A stretch of 64,000 nt of DNA from Anaerolineales bacterium (GTDB taxonomy: Bacteria > Chloroflexota > Anaerolineae > Anaerolineales > UBA4823), in assembly GCA_025057645.1 (NCBI GenBank), contig JANXBJ010000008.1, positions 1 to 64,000 on the forward strand, in the 5' to 3' direction. The notes beneath the pieces are model-generated. The model searched no databases. It was given only the letters and a program-made list of their open reading frames with translations, and was not told the DNA's origin. The position numbers and the translations under genes were made by a program. Below, piece after piece: positions 19,580 through 35,744 of the stretch. Numbering within the stretch: the first letter of the stretch is position 1; every line of letters starts with the position of its first letter.

Positions 19580-19608
19580 TTGACAACAACAGGTAGTTCC
19601 TCTATAAT
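19580..19608 (+). promoter_or_regulatory. Consensus sigma-70 promoter for the RHH/LuxR-like gene
   Basis: TTGACA at 19580-19585 and TATAAT at 19603-19608 match both consensus hexamers exactly with a 17-base spacer. The predicted start is near 19615, about 58 bases before the ATG at 19673. Confidence 0.85.
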
Positions 19609-19611
19609 AAG

Positions 19612-19627
19612 TAGAACATTTGTTCTA
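19612..19627. promoter_or_regulatory. LexA-box-like inverted repeat over the transcription start
   Basis: TAGAACATTTGTTCTA: 7-bp inverted arms around TT, directly after the -10. The core GAAC-N4-GTTC is that of the Gram-positive LexA (DinR) SOS box CGAAC-N4-GTTCG. A repressor bound here would block the strong promoter. Other factors could recognise the same repeat. Confidence 0.5.
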
Positions 19628-19672
19628 AACTAGGAGTGCTCTTGGAAGGGCATCCCCAACGGAGGTGGAGGG

Positions 19673-20185
19673 ATGAAGGCTCAGAAACGGCTGCGCCCCA
19701 GAGAGGGCGATCTCGATCCCCCGGAGATCGTGATTGACGATCCGGAAATCACCCACATGTTGGAAAAGATGGCGGAGCAAGAAGGGACTTCGGTGCAGCA
19801 AATCGCAACCCATTTGCTGCGCCATGCTCTTGCGGCGCACTACGCTGCACAAGAGCACCTGCACCGGATTTTTGCAGCAGTAGGATTAAACGGATACACA
19901 CTTGCGGCGCACTACGCTGCACAAGAGCACCTGCACCGGTGGGAGCGGCTTTCCCGAAGAGAGCAACAAGTGGTCGCCTTGCTATGTCTGGGATACACTT
20001 ACCGTGAGATTGCCAGCCGGCTGATCGTTTCCTACGAGACTGTGAAGACCCACGCTCGCAATGCCTTTCGCAAGCTTGAACTCCGAAGTGTGCACGAAAT
20101 GCGCCGAGCTCTCTCCGATTGCGATCTCAGTGGGTGGCAACTTGATTCAAGTGTTCAACGGGGAAACTCGGAACTGCCTCCATAG
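19673..20185 (+). CDS. Ribbon-helix-helix-like plus LuxR-type HTH protein with internal duplication
   Basis: A 170-residue putative DNA-binding protein. Residues ~20-50 (DDPEITHMLEKMAEQEGTSV then QQIATHLLRHAL) resemble a ribbon-helix-helix/CopG-type segment. Residues ~90-150 are a LuxR/GerE helix-turn-helix (LSRREQQVVALLCLGYTYRE, then IASRL and ETVKTHARNAFRKLEL). Between them LAAHYAAQEHLHR occurs twice, because a 39-base stretch is exactly duplicated in frame. No receiver or sensor domain is present. It is driven by an exact consensus promoter with a LexA-like repeat, so it may be a stress-induced regulator. The combination of the two DNA-binding types is unusual; the N-terminal assignment is tentative. 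Confidence 0.75.
   Translation: MKAQKRLRPREGDLDPPEIVIDDPEITHMLEKMAEQEGTSVQQIATHLLRHALAAHYAAQEHLHRIFAAVGLNGYTLAAHYAAQEHLHRWERLSRREQQVVALLCLGYTYREIASRLIVSYETVKTHARNAFRKLELRSVHEMRRALSDCDLSGWQLDSSVQRGNSELPP
19829..19939 (+). repeat. Exact 39-bp direct repeat, 72 bp apart, inside the LuxR-like gene
   Basis: Copies at 19829-19867 and 19901-19939 are identical base for base. The 72-base offset is a multiple of three, so the frame is kept and LAAHYAAQEHLHR appears twice. Absence of silent differences suggests a recent duplication. Confidence 0.95.
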
Positions 20186-20608
20186 CGTTGCGCCCCCTTC
20201 AAACCCGACTTGCGGCGAATCTGCTTCCCCACGCCAGCGCAGTTCTCAATTTGGGATAATCCTACGTCAGCCTGTATCGCTCGGCAGACAAAGATGTCTG
20301 CTTTGCGATAATCTGTGCTGCCAGCGCCCGCCCGAGTTTCACAGCATCGCAGGCGCAAACCAATGTAAAAGGTGAGAGACAGGAATTGCCCTCCGGTATC
20401 CCGGAACTACATCTGTCCTTACCCGCAAGGTGGGGGAGGGCTGCCCCCAAGGATAGAGGCTCAAGCTTTTCAAATTTCCCTCTTTGTGAGATAATATTTA
20501 TAACGCCCCTGTCTCAAAGCTGCCCATCACGCTCGGCACCCGCTGCAGTGACCTCTGGGCAAGTAAGCAGCAACCCGAAGCGAAACCCTATCTCGGAGAA
20601 GTGCGGAG
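20186..20608. other. Gap upstream of the V4R gene, no convincing gene
   Basis: This 423-base stretch has no open frame with a good ribosome site. AT-rich sequence at 20488-20503 (GATAATATTTATAAC) is the likely promoter region of the V4R gene, leaving a leader of about 100 bases. I looked for a riboswitch in that leader and could not match a known class. Confidence 0.35.
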
Positions 20609-21157
20609 ATGAACCCTGCCAACCCGGCGCGCAAGTATCCCTTTCGGTGGGAACTGCTCGGCAATTTGCGTCTTGGGCGACCCAACCTAGGTCCGATCAC
20701 CAGCCTCTATGCCTACCGTCTGATGGTATACACCTTTCGCGATGTGCTCGAGCAGACTCTCGGCACTGAGCAGGCGGATCGAATCTTCTATGACGCCGGT
20801 AGGTTGGCCGGAAAGCAGTTTTACCAAAATGCTCTCAAGCCGACAGGTAGCCTGAGTGAATTCATCCGGGAGCTGACTTCAGCCCTGCGCGAGTGGGGAA
20901 TGGGCATCCTGCGAATTGAAAAGCTAGACCTAGAAAACGGGGAGATCATCCTTACAGTTTCTGAAGACCTGGACTGCTCCGGGCTGCCAGAGCTGGACTA
21001 TGAGGTTTGTGTTTACGACGAAGGATTCATCTGCGGCCTCCTCGAAAGTTACACGGGTTCGCCCTTCAGGGTTGAGGAGATCGATTGTTGGTGTAGCGGC
21101 GATCGCACTTGTCGCTTTCGCGCCGAAGTGGTGTCCCTGCCTGCGTTTGCGGCGTAG
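20609..21157 (+). CDS. V4R-domain protein
   Basis: A 182-residue stand-alone V4R (4-vinyl reductase) domain protein. The domain, a small-molecule sensor found in XylR/DmpR-type regulators, PoxR and bacteriochlorophyll vinyl reductases, spans about 45-175. Supporting features are the RIFYDAGRLAGKQFY helix, YEVCVYDEGFICGLLESYTG, and the cysteine-rich end CWCSGDRTCRFRAEVV, which in V4R proteins binds zinc. There is no output domain, so it must act through a partner. The GGDEF protein starts 40 bases downstream on the same strand, suggesting that ligand-bound V4R protein influences c-di-GMP synthesis. That link is inferred from position only. Confidence 0.82.
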   Translation: MNPANPARKYPFRWELLGNLRLGRPNLGPITSLYAYRLMVYTFRDVLEQTLGTEQADRIFYDAGRLAGKQFYQNALKPTGSLSEFIRELTSALREWGMGILRIEKLDLENGEIILTVSEDLDCSGLPELDYEVCVYDEGFICGLLESYTGSPFRVEEIDCWCSGDRTCRFRAEVVSLPAFAA

Positions 21158-21197
21158 CGAGCTGTTAGTCGGGTAGGCTCCCTTTCGAGTCCGGCTC

Positions 21198-22733
21198 GTG
21201 GAACCCTCGTCCGCCTCACGAGAGATCAGTGTCGAGCAGGCTCTACGCCTGCTGGAACAGTTCCGTGCCCTTATCACCGAGTCTCAAGAACCCCCTTCAC
21301 AACCAAGCCTTGCGCAGGAGCTTCTTCCCTATGAACAGGCGGCGCACGCTCTTTTGCAAGTCCGCCGCCTGCTCTTCGCCTTGGCCCAGGGCGATCTCTC
21401 CTATGAGGTCAGAGAGAAAGGCGCCCTTGCGGGAGCGCTAAAGTCGCTCCAAGCCAACCTGCGCCACCTGACTTGGCAAACCCAACAGGTAGCTCGAGGA
21501 GACTTCACCCAACGTGTGGAATTTATGGGCGATTTCTCCGAGGCCTTCAACACGATGGTTACCCAGCTAGACGCCATGGCCAGAGAGCTCCAGATCCAAC
21601 GCGATGAACTGATGCGCCGCAACGAGAGCCTGATCCTTGAAATCGCCGAGCGGCAGCGTGCTGAGGCCGCCGAACGCAAGCAACGGGAACTGGCAGAAGC
21701 TTTGCAGCGGGCTGCCATGGCACTGAACGCCACGCTGAATTATGAGGAAGTTCTGGACATTATGCTGGAACGAGTGAATGAGGTAGTCGGATACGACTCG
21801 GCGATGATTATGGAAGTGGAGGGGATGAGCGCTCGGGTGCGCAGAGCGAAAAACTATCATCGCTACGGCGAAGAGGTGGAGAAGAAAGTCCTCTCTGCCT
21901 GCTTCGATATCCCCAGCACCCCGAACTTGTTCGCCATGTTTACCAGCTTGAGGCCTTTGGTGATCCCGGATGTCGACCGCTATCCGGCTCGGCGTCGAAG
22001 CCAGATCGTCAGCCCTGCGCGTTCGTGGATCGGCGCCCCGATTTACGCCCATGGCGACGTTTTAGCGTTCTTCTCTCTGGATAAGCTAGAAGCGGGGTAC
22101 TACCAAGAAGAGCACGCTCGCACCTTGGAAAGATTTGCTAGCCAAGCTGCCCTCGCCATGGTCAACGCACGCCTCTTCCGAGAAATCCAACGCCTAGCCA
22201 TAACCGACACCTTGACCGGCTTATACAATCGCCGTTATTTTCTCGAGCGCGCTTACCAGGAGTTTGCGCGCTCTTGTCGCTATCGGCATCCGCTCACCAT
22301 TGTCATCCTTGACCTTGATCACTTCAAGTCGATTAACGACACCTATGGCCATCCGATCGGAGACCTAGTTTTGCAAACAGCGGCTCGTTTGGTCAATCAG
22401 ACAGTGCGCAGAAGCGACTTGGCCGCCCGGTTCGGCGGTGAGGAAATGATTTTACTCCTACCTGAGACCCCTCCACAAGCTGGGGTAGTCCTAGCCGAAC
22501 GCCTGCGGGAAAGGATTGCCACAACACCGATTGCAGCTAACGAGCATATCCTCTCGATTACGGCCAGCTTTGGTGTCTGCGGAGCAGAGACGGCAGATTG
22601 CCACATGGAACCCCGCCGTGCTGTCGAAACCTTGATCGAACTCGCCGATCGAGCGCTCTATCAGGCCAAGCAAGCCGGGCGAAATCGCGTTTGTTCGATC
22701 CAATTTAGTTTTACCGCTCCCCCGCTTGCATAA
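21198..22733 (+). CDS. HAMP-like/GAF/GGDEF diguanylate cyclase
   Basis: A 511-residue cytoplasmic signalling protein. Order: an N-terminal helical region with a HAMP-like segment (QQVARGDFTQRVEFMGDFSE, about 90-130), a coiled coil, a GAF domain (about 175-325), then a GGDEF domain (about 335-500). The catalytic motif reads RFGGEEM, with the inhibitory I-site RRSD at the right spacing before it, so it should be an active diguanylate cyclase with product inhibition. There is no membrane segment despite the HAMP-like part. The start is a GTG at 21198. It lies 40 bases after the V4R gene and probably shares its transcript. Confidence 0.9.
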   Translation: MEPSSASREISVEQALRLLEQFRALITESQEPPSQPSLAQELLPYEQAAHALLQVRRLLFALAQGDLSYEVREKGALAGALKSLQANLRHLTWQTQQVARGDFTQRVEFMGDFSEAFNTMVTQLDAMARELQIQRDELMRRNESLILEIAERQRAEAAERKQRELAEALQRAAMALNATLNYEEVLDIMLERVNEVVGYDSAMIMEVEGMSARVRRAKNYHRYGEEVEKKVLSACFDIPSTPNLFAMFTSLRPLVIPDVDRYPARRRSQIVSPARSWIGAPIYAHGDVLAFFSLDKLEAGYYQEEHARTLERFASQAALAMVNARLFREIQRLAITDTLTGLYNRRYFLERAYQEFARSCRYRHPLTIVILDLDHFKSINDTYGHPIGDLVLQTAARLVNQTVRRSDLAARFGGEEMILLLPETPPQAGVVLAERLRERIATTPIAANEHILSITASFGVCGAETADCHMEPRRAVETLIELADRALYQAKQAGRNRVCSIQFSFTAPPLA

Positions 22734-22926
22734 CTCCCGAAATCCTGCGAGGAAACTCGGCCTGCTTTGACGGGAGGGTGAAGGGCTACGTGAGCGCCTT
22801 GTGCGTCGCTCCCTACTGAAAAAAGCCCCGGTGAATGATGCAGCACGCTCTAGGGCGAGCGCAGTGGTAAAATTCGCTCGAAAGGAGCGAAGCTGCCTGC
22901 CCAAATCTCACGAGGAGAGACTATTT

Positions 22927-24240
22927 ATGTCAAATTCCCATGCTGAATTCCTGGCCCAAATGAAGCGCATCCCTGAGATGCTTGCCCCAAGCCTGGCCGA
23001 AGACTGGCCAAAATTACCTGTGGTCAAAGCCGAAGGAGTATACCTTTACACTGCTGACGGCAAGCGCTATTTGGATTTCACCTCCGGAATCGCCGTCACC
23101 AATCTCGGGCACGGACATCCGCGGGTGCTAGAAGCAGCCCGACGGCAAATGGAAGAAATGGTGCATAGCGCCGTAGGAGTAACGATCCACAAATCGCTTC
23201 TCGACCTGTGCGAGGCCTTACCCAAAGTGCTGCCCGGGGAGCTGGATATGTTCTTTTTCGGCAACAGCGGCGCTGAAGCTGTGGAGGGTGCGATCAAGCT
23301 GGCGCGCTACGTGACCCGACGGCCGGGCATCGTTGCTTTCGAGGGAGGCTTTCACGGTCGCACTTACGGAGCAGCCTCGGTAACCACTATCAAGTCAAAA
23401 TACCGCAATCATTATGAACCTTTTGTCCCCAGCATTTACTTTGTTCCTTTTCCCTATGCCTACCGTTGTCCGCTTGGCTCCACCCCCGAGAAGGCGCTGG
23501 AATGGACTCTGCTGAGCATTCAACGTCTGTTTGAGCACCAGATTCCCCCTTCGCAGGTGGCTGCCTTTCTGGTCGAGCCGATCCAAGGGGAAGGTGGGTA
23601 CATCGTCCCTCCGCGGGATTTCCTACCCGCGCTGCGCAAAATTTGCGACGAACACGGCATTCTCCTGATTCTCGACGAAGTGCAGACCGGGTTTGGCCGA
23701 ACCGGCGAAATGTTCGCCTGTCAACATGTCGGTGTGATCCCGGATATCTTGGCGATCGCCAAGGGGATCGCTAACGGTTTTCCCTTGAGCGCCACGGTGG
23801 CAAACCGCAAACTGATGAGCCAATGGCTACCCGGCTCCCACGGGACCACTTACGGAGGCAATCCCATTGCTTGTGCGGCGGCCCTGGCAACCCTGCAGGT
23901 CATTCAGGAGGAAAACCTGCTGGAAAACGCTCGCAAGATGGGCCAACGCTTTCTGGATGGCTTGAGTGTGCTGAAGAAAAAATACCCGGTTATCGGGGAA
24001 GTGCGTGGGCTAGGTCTTATGGTCGCCATGGAGTTCATCCATCCCGAGAGCGACAAAAAACCCAACCCAGAAATGGCCTTTAGGTTATTGAATGCCATGT
24101 TGGAGCAAGGGCTTGTAGCCTACATGGGCGGAGTTCACGGTCAAGTGGTGCGCTACATTCCGCCGCTGATCGTGACCGCTGAACAGATTGACGAAGCCCT
24201 AGCCATCACCGAGAGAGGTCTAGCTCAGGTTGCGGCCTGA
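22927..24240 (+). CDS. Class III PLP-dependent aminotransferase (4-aminobutyrate/acetylornithine type)
   Basis: A 437-residue PLP enzyme of aminotransferase class III. The Schiff-base lysine is K279 in AIAKGIANGFPLSA; other marks are FFGNSGAEAVEGAIKLAR (phosphate cup), FEGGFHGRTYGA, the acidic LILDEVQTGFGRTG and HGTTYGGNP. Closest functional guesses are 4-aminobutyrate or other omega-amino-acid transaminases; ornithine aminotransferase cannot be excluded. GAGGAG upstream supports the ATG at 22927; an in-frame extension to 22801 lacks support. It stands alone between the GGDEF and RNase H genes, so the pathway is not visible. Confidence 0.9.
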   Translation: MSNSHAEFLAQMKRIPEMLAPSLAEDWPKLPVVKAEGVYLYTADGKRYLDFTSGIAVTNLGHGHPRVLEAARRQMEEMVHSAVGVTIHKSLLDLCEALPKVLPGELDMFFFGNSGAEAVEGAIKLARYVTRRPGIVAFEGGFHGRTYGAASVTTIKSKYRNHYEPFVPSIYFVPFPYAYRCPLGSTPEKALEWTLLSIQRLFEHQIPPSQVAAFLVEPIQGEGGYIVPPRDFLPALRKICDEHGILLILDEVQTGFGRTGEMFACQHVGVIPDILAIAKGIANGFPLSATVANRKLMSQWLPGSHGTTYGGNPIACAAALATLQVIQEENLLENARKMGQRFLDGLSVLKKKYPVIGEVRGLGLMVAMEFIHPESDKKPNPEMAFRLLNAMLEQGLVAYMGGVHGQVVRYIPPLIVTAEQIDEALAITERGLAQVAA

Positions 24241-35171: not shown

Positions 35172-35744
35172 TTACCCTACCTGAGTTTCGGCTATCTCAT
35201 AAGGGCGTTTACAGCATTCACAGATGATCTCTTGCGTTTGGACTAGCGATCGTCTAAGCTGGATGGTGTGAGGAGGAGTGCAACGGCAATGAGCAATCAC
35301 CTGCGGATCGCCGGGTGTGCTTCGAGCCATCAGTCCTTCGACCAAAATCACCGCCCGAACGATCCCTCCATACTGTACCAGCAATCCTTCCAACCGAGCC
35401 AATGTCGTCTCCCAGCGGCGCTGTCCCTCGGGTGCCAGGATCCATTCCACCTGCTGGGTTTTAGGGTTGCGATAAGAGGTTACCCCGAAAGCACGCGGAG
35501 GTTGCCGATAGAAAGGCGAGAAGCGTCCTATGCACTCCATAATCTCCAAAAGCAAGTTGACTACAATCTTCTCCGCAGCAACACATGTGTCGCTCAAATC
35601 CACTTGGTGAAAAACGGAGGAGAGGTCGGGCAAGCTCGCATTGACCTCGTATAGGCGACACATTTCCGACCAAGTCCTTGCCAATAAGTCTCGCATTCGT
35701 TCAACGGGGTCTACGACTTCTTGAGAGTGATCGCTCCCATTCAT
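35172..35744 (-). CDS. Conserved cysteine-rich protein of unknown function downstream of hdrCB
   Basis: A 190-residue soluble protein not recognised as a known family. The N-terminal ~150 residues are mainly helical. The C-terminal end carries five cysteines: CRC near 156-158, then CECC about 20 residues later in IICECCKRPYEI, a probable zinc-binding knuckle or Fe-S site. It starts 68 bases after the hdrCB stop on the same strand and is the last gene of the Hdr/Met cluster, before the convergent-free gap that holds the DeoR promoter. Position suggests an accessory or assembly factor of the complex, but the sequence gives no function. Confidence 0.6.
   Translation of the reverse strand: MNGSDHSQEVVDPVERMRDLLARTWSEMCRLYEVNASLPDLSSVFHQVDLSDTCVAAEKIVVNLLLEIMECIGRFSPFYRQPPRAFGVTSYRNPKTQQVEWILAPEGQRRWETTLARLEGLLVQYGGIVRAVILVEGLMARSTPGDPQVIAHCRCTPPHTIQLRRSLVQTQEIICECCKRPYEIAETQVG

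Follow-up and report, generated by a model that had tools for sequence, protein, structure and literature searches.

The genes of SOS mutagenesis are usually pictured as direct targets of LexA, and a green non-sulfur bacterium reportedly uses a GAAC-N4-GTTC operator, as found in work on Dehalococcoides from 2002. The available text of PMC3323433 gives the same motif as the LexA (SOS) operator of the Gram-positive type. According to the accessible portions of two further papers (PMC11791011, PMC4104785), the PolB2 mutasome operon iRadA-PPB2-PolB2 is found in archaea and in bacteria, is marked by MGRT, QxxLF-like motifs and an altered DxD motif, and has lexA nearby in some bacteria; in the main text of PMC11791011, as far as it was accessible, neither LuxR nor HTH is mentioned. 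In Myxococcus xanthus, a transcription factor induced by DNA damage, DdiA, has been described as activating dnaE2, the gene of an error-prone polymerase (PMC12288472, available part).

The locus analysed here lies in a window of 64,000 nucleotides (the whole stretch of DNA under analysis, from the Anaerolineales genome G000), where a gene for a LuxR-type regulator is preceded by a promoter and a LexA-type box:

19580..19585, + strand: -35 hexamer TTGACA, read from the sequence
19603..19608, + strand: -10 hexamer TATAAT, after a 17-bp spacer, read from the sequence
19612..19627, + strand: LexA-type operator TAGAACATTTGTTCTA, spanning the expected transcription start (sequence, 16-mer scan, comparison with lexA and homologues)
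19673..20185, + strand: LuxR-type regulator of 170 aa (ORF, Pfam GerE 2.4e-13, family alignment)
19946..20098, + strand: GerE/LuxR helix-turn-helix, aa 92-142 (Pfam GerE)

The promoter is an exact TTGACA-17-TATAAT, as an earlier note made from the sequence had stated, with both hexamers and the 17-bp spacer exact at 19580-19608. The same note had the box overlapping the promoter hexamers, which had to be corrected: TAGAACATTTGTTCTA (core at 19614-19625; regulator ATG at 19673) starts 4 bp past the -10 and lies over the expected start site, clear of both hexamers. The GAAC-N4-GTTC core alone occurs once in the window, where shuffled sequence gives an expectation of 0.87, and its genome-wide count (35 places, fewer than with a reversed-pattern control) was rejected as evidence. 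The extended 16-mer box was the sole match of at least 18/20 in the window (the + strand was scanned; the motif is palindromic except at its centre), with a score of 20/20 for the operator, and it recurs at the equivalent position in nearly all homologues. The observation of promoter, box and repeat (the last described below) was confirmed as real and far above chance.

In the window genome, lexA was identified on contig C22 (TIGR00498 above cut-off) and recA on contig C11, and the promoters of both carry the same motif next to a TTGACA, in the form of TTGACATAGAACGATTGTTCGT with the exact core at lexA and of TTGACAAACAGAACGTTTGTGCTA with one core mismatch at recA. Upstream of lexA in 26 genomes of the order, the best 16-mer scored at least 17/20 in 25 and 16 in the remaining one. 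Since the box accompanies lexA both in genomes with the regulator family (15/15) and in genomes without it (10/11), the site can be attributed to LexA. Homologues of the regulator (E<=1e-12) were detected in 36 of the 151 genomes of the order, and a box of at least 18/20 was found upstream in all 30 homologue loci read, the window locus included, against a background of three matches of at least 18/20 in 88,937 other positions of 29 homologue loci. A second collection comprised 80 loci, 75 titled Chloroflexota (2 of them without upstream sequence) and 5 LuxR loci of other phyla, many of the loci coming from species already represented in the first set; here 72 of the 73 readable Chloroflexota loci scored at least 17 and one scored 16, and the 5 non-Chloroflexota loci reached at most 13/20. 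Among the cultured members listed in the second collection, Anaerolinea thermolimosa has the linked arrangement of regulator and mutasome operon (described below), and Bellilinea caldifistulae has a regulator and promoter that look like those of G013, where the two are unlinked. Four LuxR-type genes elsewhere in the window genome had box scores of no more than 16 on the strand scanned. The retention of the box with the gene across the order and in the second collection marks the gene as a predicted member of the LexA (SOS) regulon, and the suggestion that a LuxR-type regulator is under SOS control is well supported by the boxes at lexA and recA and by their conservation at homologues. The condition that the earlier note had set for refuting it, absence of the motif from the recA and lexA promoters, does not apply.

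Several other boxes were noted. In G011 and G424 (g24; L331 and L332), extra LuxR-type genes match the family in the HTH part only; a box with the full score of 20/20 lies some 160-200 bp upstream of the region that matches. In G000, two GAAC-N4-GTTC boxes lie in and just after a TTGACA/TATAAT promoter (L026:2615-2665; C1, 78120-78157), and the SLT transglycosylase-domain gene behind them is likely a further SOS gene of this genome. An ORF of 91 aa that has no match in Pfam is directly preceded by ATAGAACAAAAGTTCTA (L031:2266-2555; C25, 3265) and is a possible SOS gene, and GAACATCTGTTC is located at the start of an MraZ-domain ORF ahead of an rsmH-like gene (L029:2619; C11, 76118), where it may reflect a link between cell division and damage, or chance.

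Regarding the protein, the LuxR HTH reported in the product was recovered by Pfam (GerE, E 2.4e-13, aa 92-142), and the GerE domain was present in 59/59 family members tested. The ribbon-helix-helix-like N-terminus that had also been proposed gave no Pfam match in the window protein or in the family and remains a resemblance; the family model, a monomer, has two helices and no strand in this part, and no ribbon-helix-helix entry appeared among the 50 Foldseek rows listed. Family members are mostly about 130-150 aa long and consist of a short helical N-terminal part, the GerE HTH and a tail with the consensus WDFSxW. The AlphaFold model of the family (mean pLDDT 89.6) shows helices followed by the HTH, and Foldseek returned NarL/FixJ-type HTH domains, with an rmsd of 0.9 to the NarL DNA-binding domain; a model of the window protein added nothing beyond the family model. 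A receiver domain had no Pfam match in the window protein or in the family tables listed, and the N-terminal part is too short for one. When the window protein was the sole query, a scan of contigs yielded no relative; the family alignment as query did find relatives. In a phylum sample of 301 genomes, 12 had a member at E<=1e-22, 11 of them from the same order (the window's included) and one from the same class. By sequence comparison, the regulator family is common in the Anaerolineales, order-wide and equipped with a predicted SOS box.

The neighbourhood of the regulator was compared in 66 deduplicated loci, where a joint group of ~180-aa and ~90-aa proteins was found in 46 and a B-family DNA polymerase in 45. 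The ~90-aa neighbour begins with MGRT, QxxLF-like motifs are found at the C-terminus of many ~180-aa neighbours, and in the polymerase the usual YxDTD is replaced by YVDGL or a variant of it. Judged by these motifs, the usual partner of the regulator is the known iRadA-PPB2-PolB2 operon, and these mutasome genes lie downstream of the regulator in about two thirds of the loci. Twenty-nine of 57 regulator copies are placed upstream of PolB2 on the same strand at less than 5 kb, 28 of them at 0.9-1.6 kb and one at 4.9 kb. Across 151 genomes, PolB2 was detected in 70 (E<=1e-30) and the regulator family in 47 (E<=1e-22), with both in 40, the regulator only in 7, PolB2 only in 30 and neither in 74 (Fisher p 1.2e-10, uncorrected for kinship).

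The DNA upstream of PolB2 was read in 39 loci, PolB2-only genomes being sampled. Among them were 22 loci in which no regulator was found; L246, being too short, was not included, and G118 was counted as linked rather than regulator-less, because a distant regulator was found there. A LexA box of at least 17/20 was present at the iRadA start in 20 of these 22 no-regulator operons, the two exceptions being G043, which begins at a contig edge, and G135, which is without a box. By contrast, none of seven operons with an unlinked regulator (G054, G065, G082, G090, G014, G013 and G005) had a box near iRadA (Fisher p 2e-5 for 20/22 against 0/7, uncorrected for kinship); G121, with little upstream sequence, and G149, where no iRadA was found, were left out of this comparison, and G082 has a single 17/20 match about 3 kb from iRadA. 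In family f5, the box is found at iRadA in four loci with distant regulators, and in genus g35 a second box lies between the regulator and iRadA.

Two kinds of block, resembling GGTTAACC and CCCC..GGGGATTG, occur with constant spacing upstream of iRadA in the unlinked operons, and also in many regulator-iRadA gaps of linked operons. They belong to a 48-bp element with the consensus tcgggTtaaCCC.t.tTtCacCC.t.a.atcCCCcg..GGGGgaT.gT. A 48-bp weight matrix was learned from 38 linked gaps only (L099, L106 and L122 of 41 were left out because the start was unreadable or the gap short), and the unlinked, regulator-less and f5 groups were scanned in fixed stretches of at most 450 bp, with shuffle levels of 8.0 (99%) and 13.2 (99.9%). 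The element was detected in seven of eight unlinked operons at scores of 14.3-42.5, the eighth, G121, scoring -1.9. Three of the 22 no-regulator operons exceeded 13.2, namely G135 (genome 82% complete, LexA box also absent) and the f5 members G058 and G115. The f5 members G004 and G032 scored 9.1 and 0.1, and outside f5 and G135 the element was found in 0/17 regulator-less operons, with scores of at most 5.0. Scores in f5 loci with a distant regulator ranged from 4.5 to 15.4, and among four further linked operons G118 alone rose above 8.0 (10.7), G124, G074 and the C4 cassette of G106 remaining below the 99% shuffle level. The pattern search for the element was repeated for four genomes: in three genus mates of the window genome the iRadA promoter is the genome's only exact match, even though the PolB2 of G082 is just 43-45% identical to those of G054 and G065 and the flanking genes were not shared, and the wide search for further targets was mostly at chance level among the matches listed. 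G106 has two PolB2 cassettes (L333 on C4, L225 on C5), one behind a boxed regulator and one boxed directly at iRadA, and a clear 48-bp element is seen in neither.

Alignment of 40 sites on the iRadA ATG revealed a -10 of the form TAxxxT (T 82%, A 95%, T 93%) at -12 to -7. The element lies upstream of this fixed -10 and stops about 31 bp short of the ATG. Such a -10 beside the ATG suggests a leaderless transcript, and it places the element at the position of a weak -35 whose role an activator would take over. Other genes, too, have the element in front of them: in G125 (L335:2173-2717) a TIR-domain gene with a similar -10 takes the place of the mutasome behind the regulator and a strong element, and in G149 an element with a similar -10 stands before a small-protein gene 4 kb from the regulator.

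The comparison thus reveals a LexA operator on the regulator, an element at iRadA, and an exchange of box and element at iRadA according to the position of the regulator, and this exchange suggests a relay. We regard as probable a two-step SOS relay in which LexA represses the regulator and the regulator acts on the mutasome promoter, the window copy being an orphan. LexA bound at TAGAACATTTGTTCTA, an operator recognised by comparison, would block the strong promoter until DNA damage occurs. In relatives, the factor made on damage would then act on the 48-bp element, most likely as an activator, its binding and direction of action both being predicted. At this element, in the -35 place of the putatively leaderless iRadA-PPB2-PolB2 promoter, the factor would switch on the translesion mutasome. 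In the window genome, the regulator would have survived with its operator and HTH intact, though with a newly gained insert and an altered tail. We favour activation, since without it the unlinked operons would either have no damage control left or be shut down by damage. Where regulator and operon are linked, transcription running on from the LexA-controlled promoter could be sufficient for mutasome expression, and some linked elements, with T-rich runs after them, could be terminators. We lean only slightly towards the wider proposal that in many lineages LexA would control just a small LuxR-type factor, and that this dedicated relay would open the PolB2 promoter through the factor's own 48-bp operator even when unlinked, could be rewired, as with the TIR gene of G125, and would outlive the loss of the cassette.

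The window copy itself shows the following features in its middle and tail:

19829..19867, + strand: 39-bp repeat, first copy (sequence comparison)
19868..19900, + strand: 33-bp filler separating the copies (alignment, sequence comparison)
19901..19939, + strand: 39-bp repeat, second copy (sequence comparison)
20120..20137, + strand: tail CDLSGW, against the family consensus WDFSxW (family alignment)

An exact in-frame 39-bp repeat at an offset of 72 had been reported and is indeed present, with copies at 19829-19867 and 19901-19939. Its description as a fresh 39-bp duplication holds for the exact repeat and not for a plain tandem form, because the 33 bases at 19868-19900 separate the copies; this filler bears no likeness to either flank when compared by eye. 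One copy plus the filler make up a 24-aa insert that is absent from the other 29 aligned homologues, and in the tail other residues stand in place of the conserved W and F (CDLSGW). The repeat may be an assembly artefact. The window regulator is 55-56% identical to those of its genus mates, which share 89-91% among themselves, whereas for three neighbour genes the values are 72-92% between the window and the mates and 79-94% among the mates. With G090 as outgroup, the window protein had 20-21 changes of its own and a mate 7-8 (chi-square 5.1-7.0); with more distant outgroups the excess in the window was mostly weaker and in a few absent. The exact repeat, absent from the genus mates, and the faster change of the protein support the recent remodelling that the earlier note had supposed, so that its overall interpretation is supported in part, as to SOS control and remodelling, the ribbon-helix-helix part, for which there was no Pfam match, remaining a resemblance.

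The window regulator retains V4R, GGDEF and aminotransferase genes as neighbours. The arrangement at 19673-24240 of the window differs from that in three genus mates, where the regulator flanks the other end of the V4R-GGDEF-aminotransferase block, and a local rearrangement has therefore happened.

In the window genome, which is 95.75% complete, no PolB2 was found at E<=1e-30 and no iRadA at E<=0.01. The regulator seems to be a fast-evolving orphan whose partner mutasome has seemingly been lost, and its recent remodelling fits an orphan regulator after cassette loss. Alternatively, the copy may have been recruited to a new target rather than be decaying, the insert forming part of the change, a possibility that we hold tentatively and at less than even chance. 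The operator (20/20), the consensus promoter, the HTH and the reading frame are all intact, and the TIR-domain gene behind the regulator and element in G125 indicates that targets can change; however, no convincing element was found in the examined part of G000, where the pattern matches, all with three mismatches, were near the control level (6 against 3) and the best matrix score over 167 kb of loci was 13.1, and the tail no longer has its conserved W and F. A matrix match in the window at 35488 (- strand) lies inside an ORF and was taken as chance.

As to the mutasome promoter, an SOS box on the regulator together with an element at the iRadA promoter would equally fit an SOS-induced regulator that represses this promoter, a delayed shut-off limiting mutagenesis, and the -35 place covered by the element is one where a repressor could also act. 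Nevertheless, we consider repression unlikely, since the seven unlinked operons without a LexA box would go off when needed, nearly all operons with no regulator found (20/22) look LexA-controlled, and the absence of TTGACA from the -35 place of these promoters fits an activator better. The element might also be no operator but a terminator of transcription or a leader RNA behind the regulator gene, in line with the right-hand inverted repeat that some of the linked loci show ahead of a T-rich stretch. This appears quite improbable given that the unlinked operons carry the element, mostly without a T run and without a regulator gene upstream, that it precedes unrelated genes in G125 and G149, that its end lies some 31 bp short of the ATG and upstream of the fixed -10, and that pairing of the right-hand arms was no better than with shuffled partners (153 against 146.5); pairing of the left-hand arms was better (111 against 96.1). 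Finally, although the 16-bp box is found at nearly every regulator copy, its presence at lexA in 10/11 genomes with no regulator found and at iRadA in 20/22 operons of regulator-less genomes makes it very improbable that it is the regulator's own autoregulatory site and not that of LexA.

Under the preferred two-step relay with activation, an intermediate regulator with its own operator is predicted to gate a B-family translesion polymerase of archaeal origin, in an order with few genetic studies. Outside f5 and g35, either the LexA box or the regulator's element is predicted at iRadA, depending on the position of the regulator. If true, damage-induced mutation would come under a two-tier control that can be tested, and there would be a starting point for explaining how the PolB2 mutasomes of bacteria are turned on. 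No description of the regulator or of the relay was found in literature on LexA/SOS in Chloroflexota, PolB2, LuxR activators and translesion cascades, in a coverage that lay largely outside subscription journals and included some papers in part.

Compared with known systems, the regulator has the C-terminal GerE HTH in common with NarL/FixJ-type regulators, but differs from them in that no receiver or ligand domain was found and in its short helical N-terminus and conserved WDFSxW tail. With the LexA regulon as presented in the available text of PMC3323433, the locus shares the operator core, which lexA and the window gene have in full and recA has with one mismatch; here, however, the predicted controlled gene encodes a LuxR-type transcription factor, and that text names no such member. 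The neighbouring operon agrees with the PolB2 mutasome of PMC11791011 and PMC4104785, as far as their accessible parts describe it, in the same three genes, their order, the MGRT start of PPB2 and the altered DxD motif of PolB2, whereas here a LexA-boxed LuxR-type gene stands at its head or is its partner in trans, and the operon has an element of its own. The nearest analogue is DdiA (PMC12288472, available part), with which the proposed relay would have in common a damage-induced factor acting on an error-prone polymerase gene; DdiA belongs to the XRE family and is LexA-independent, whereas the regulator described here is of the LuxR type and LexA-boxed.
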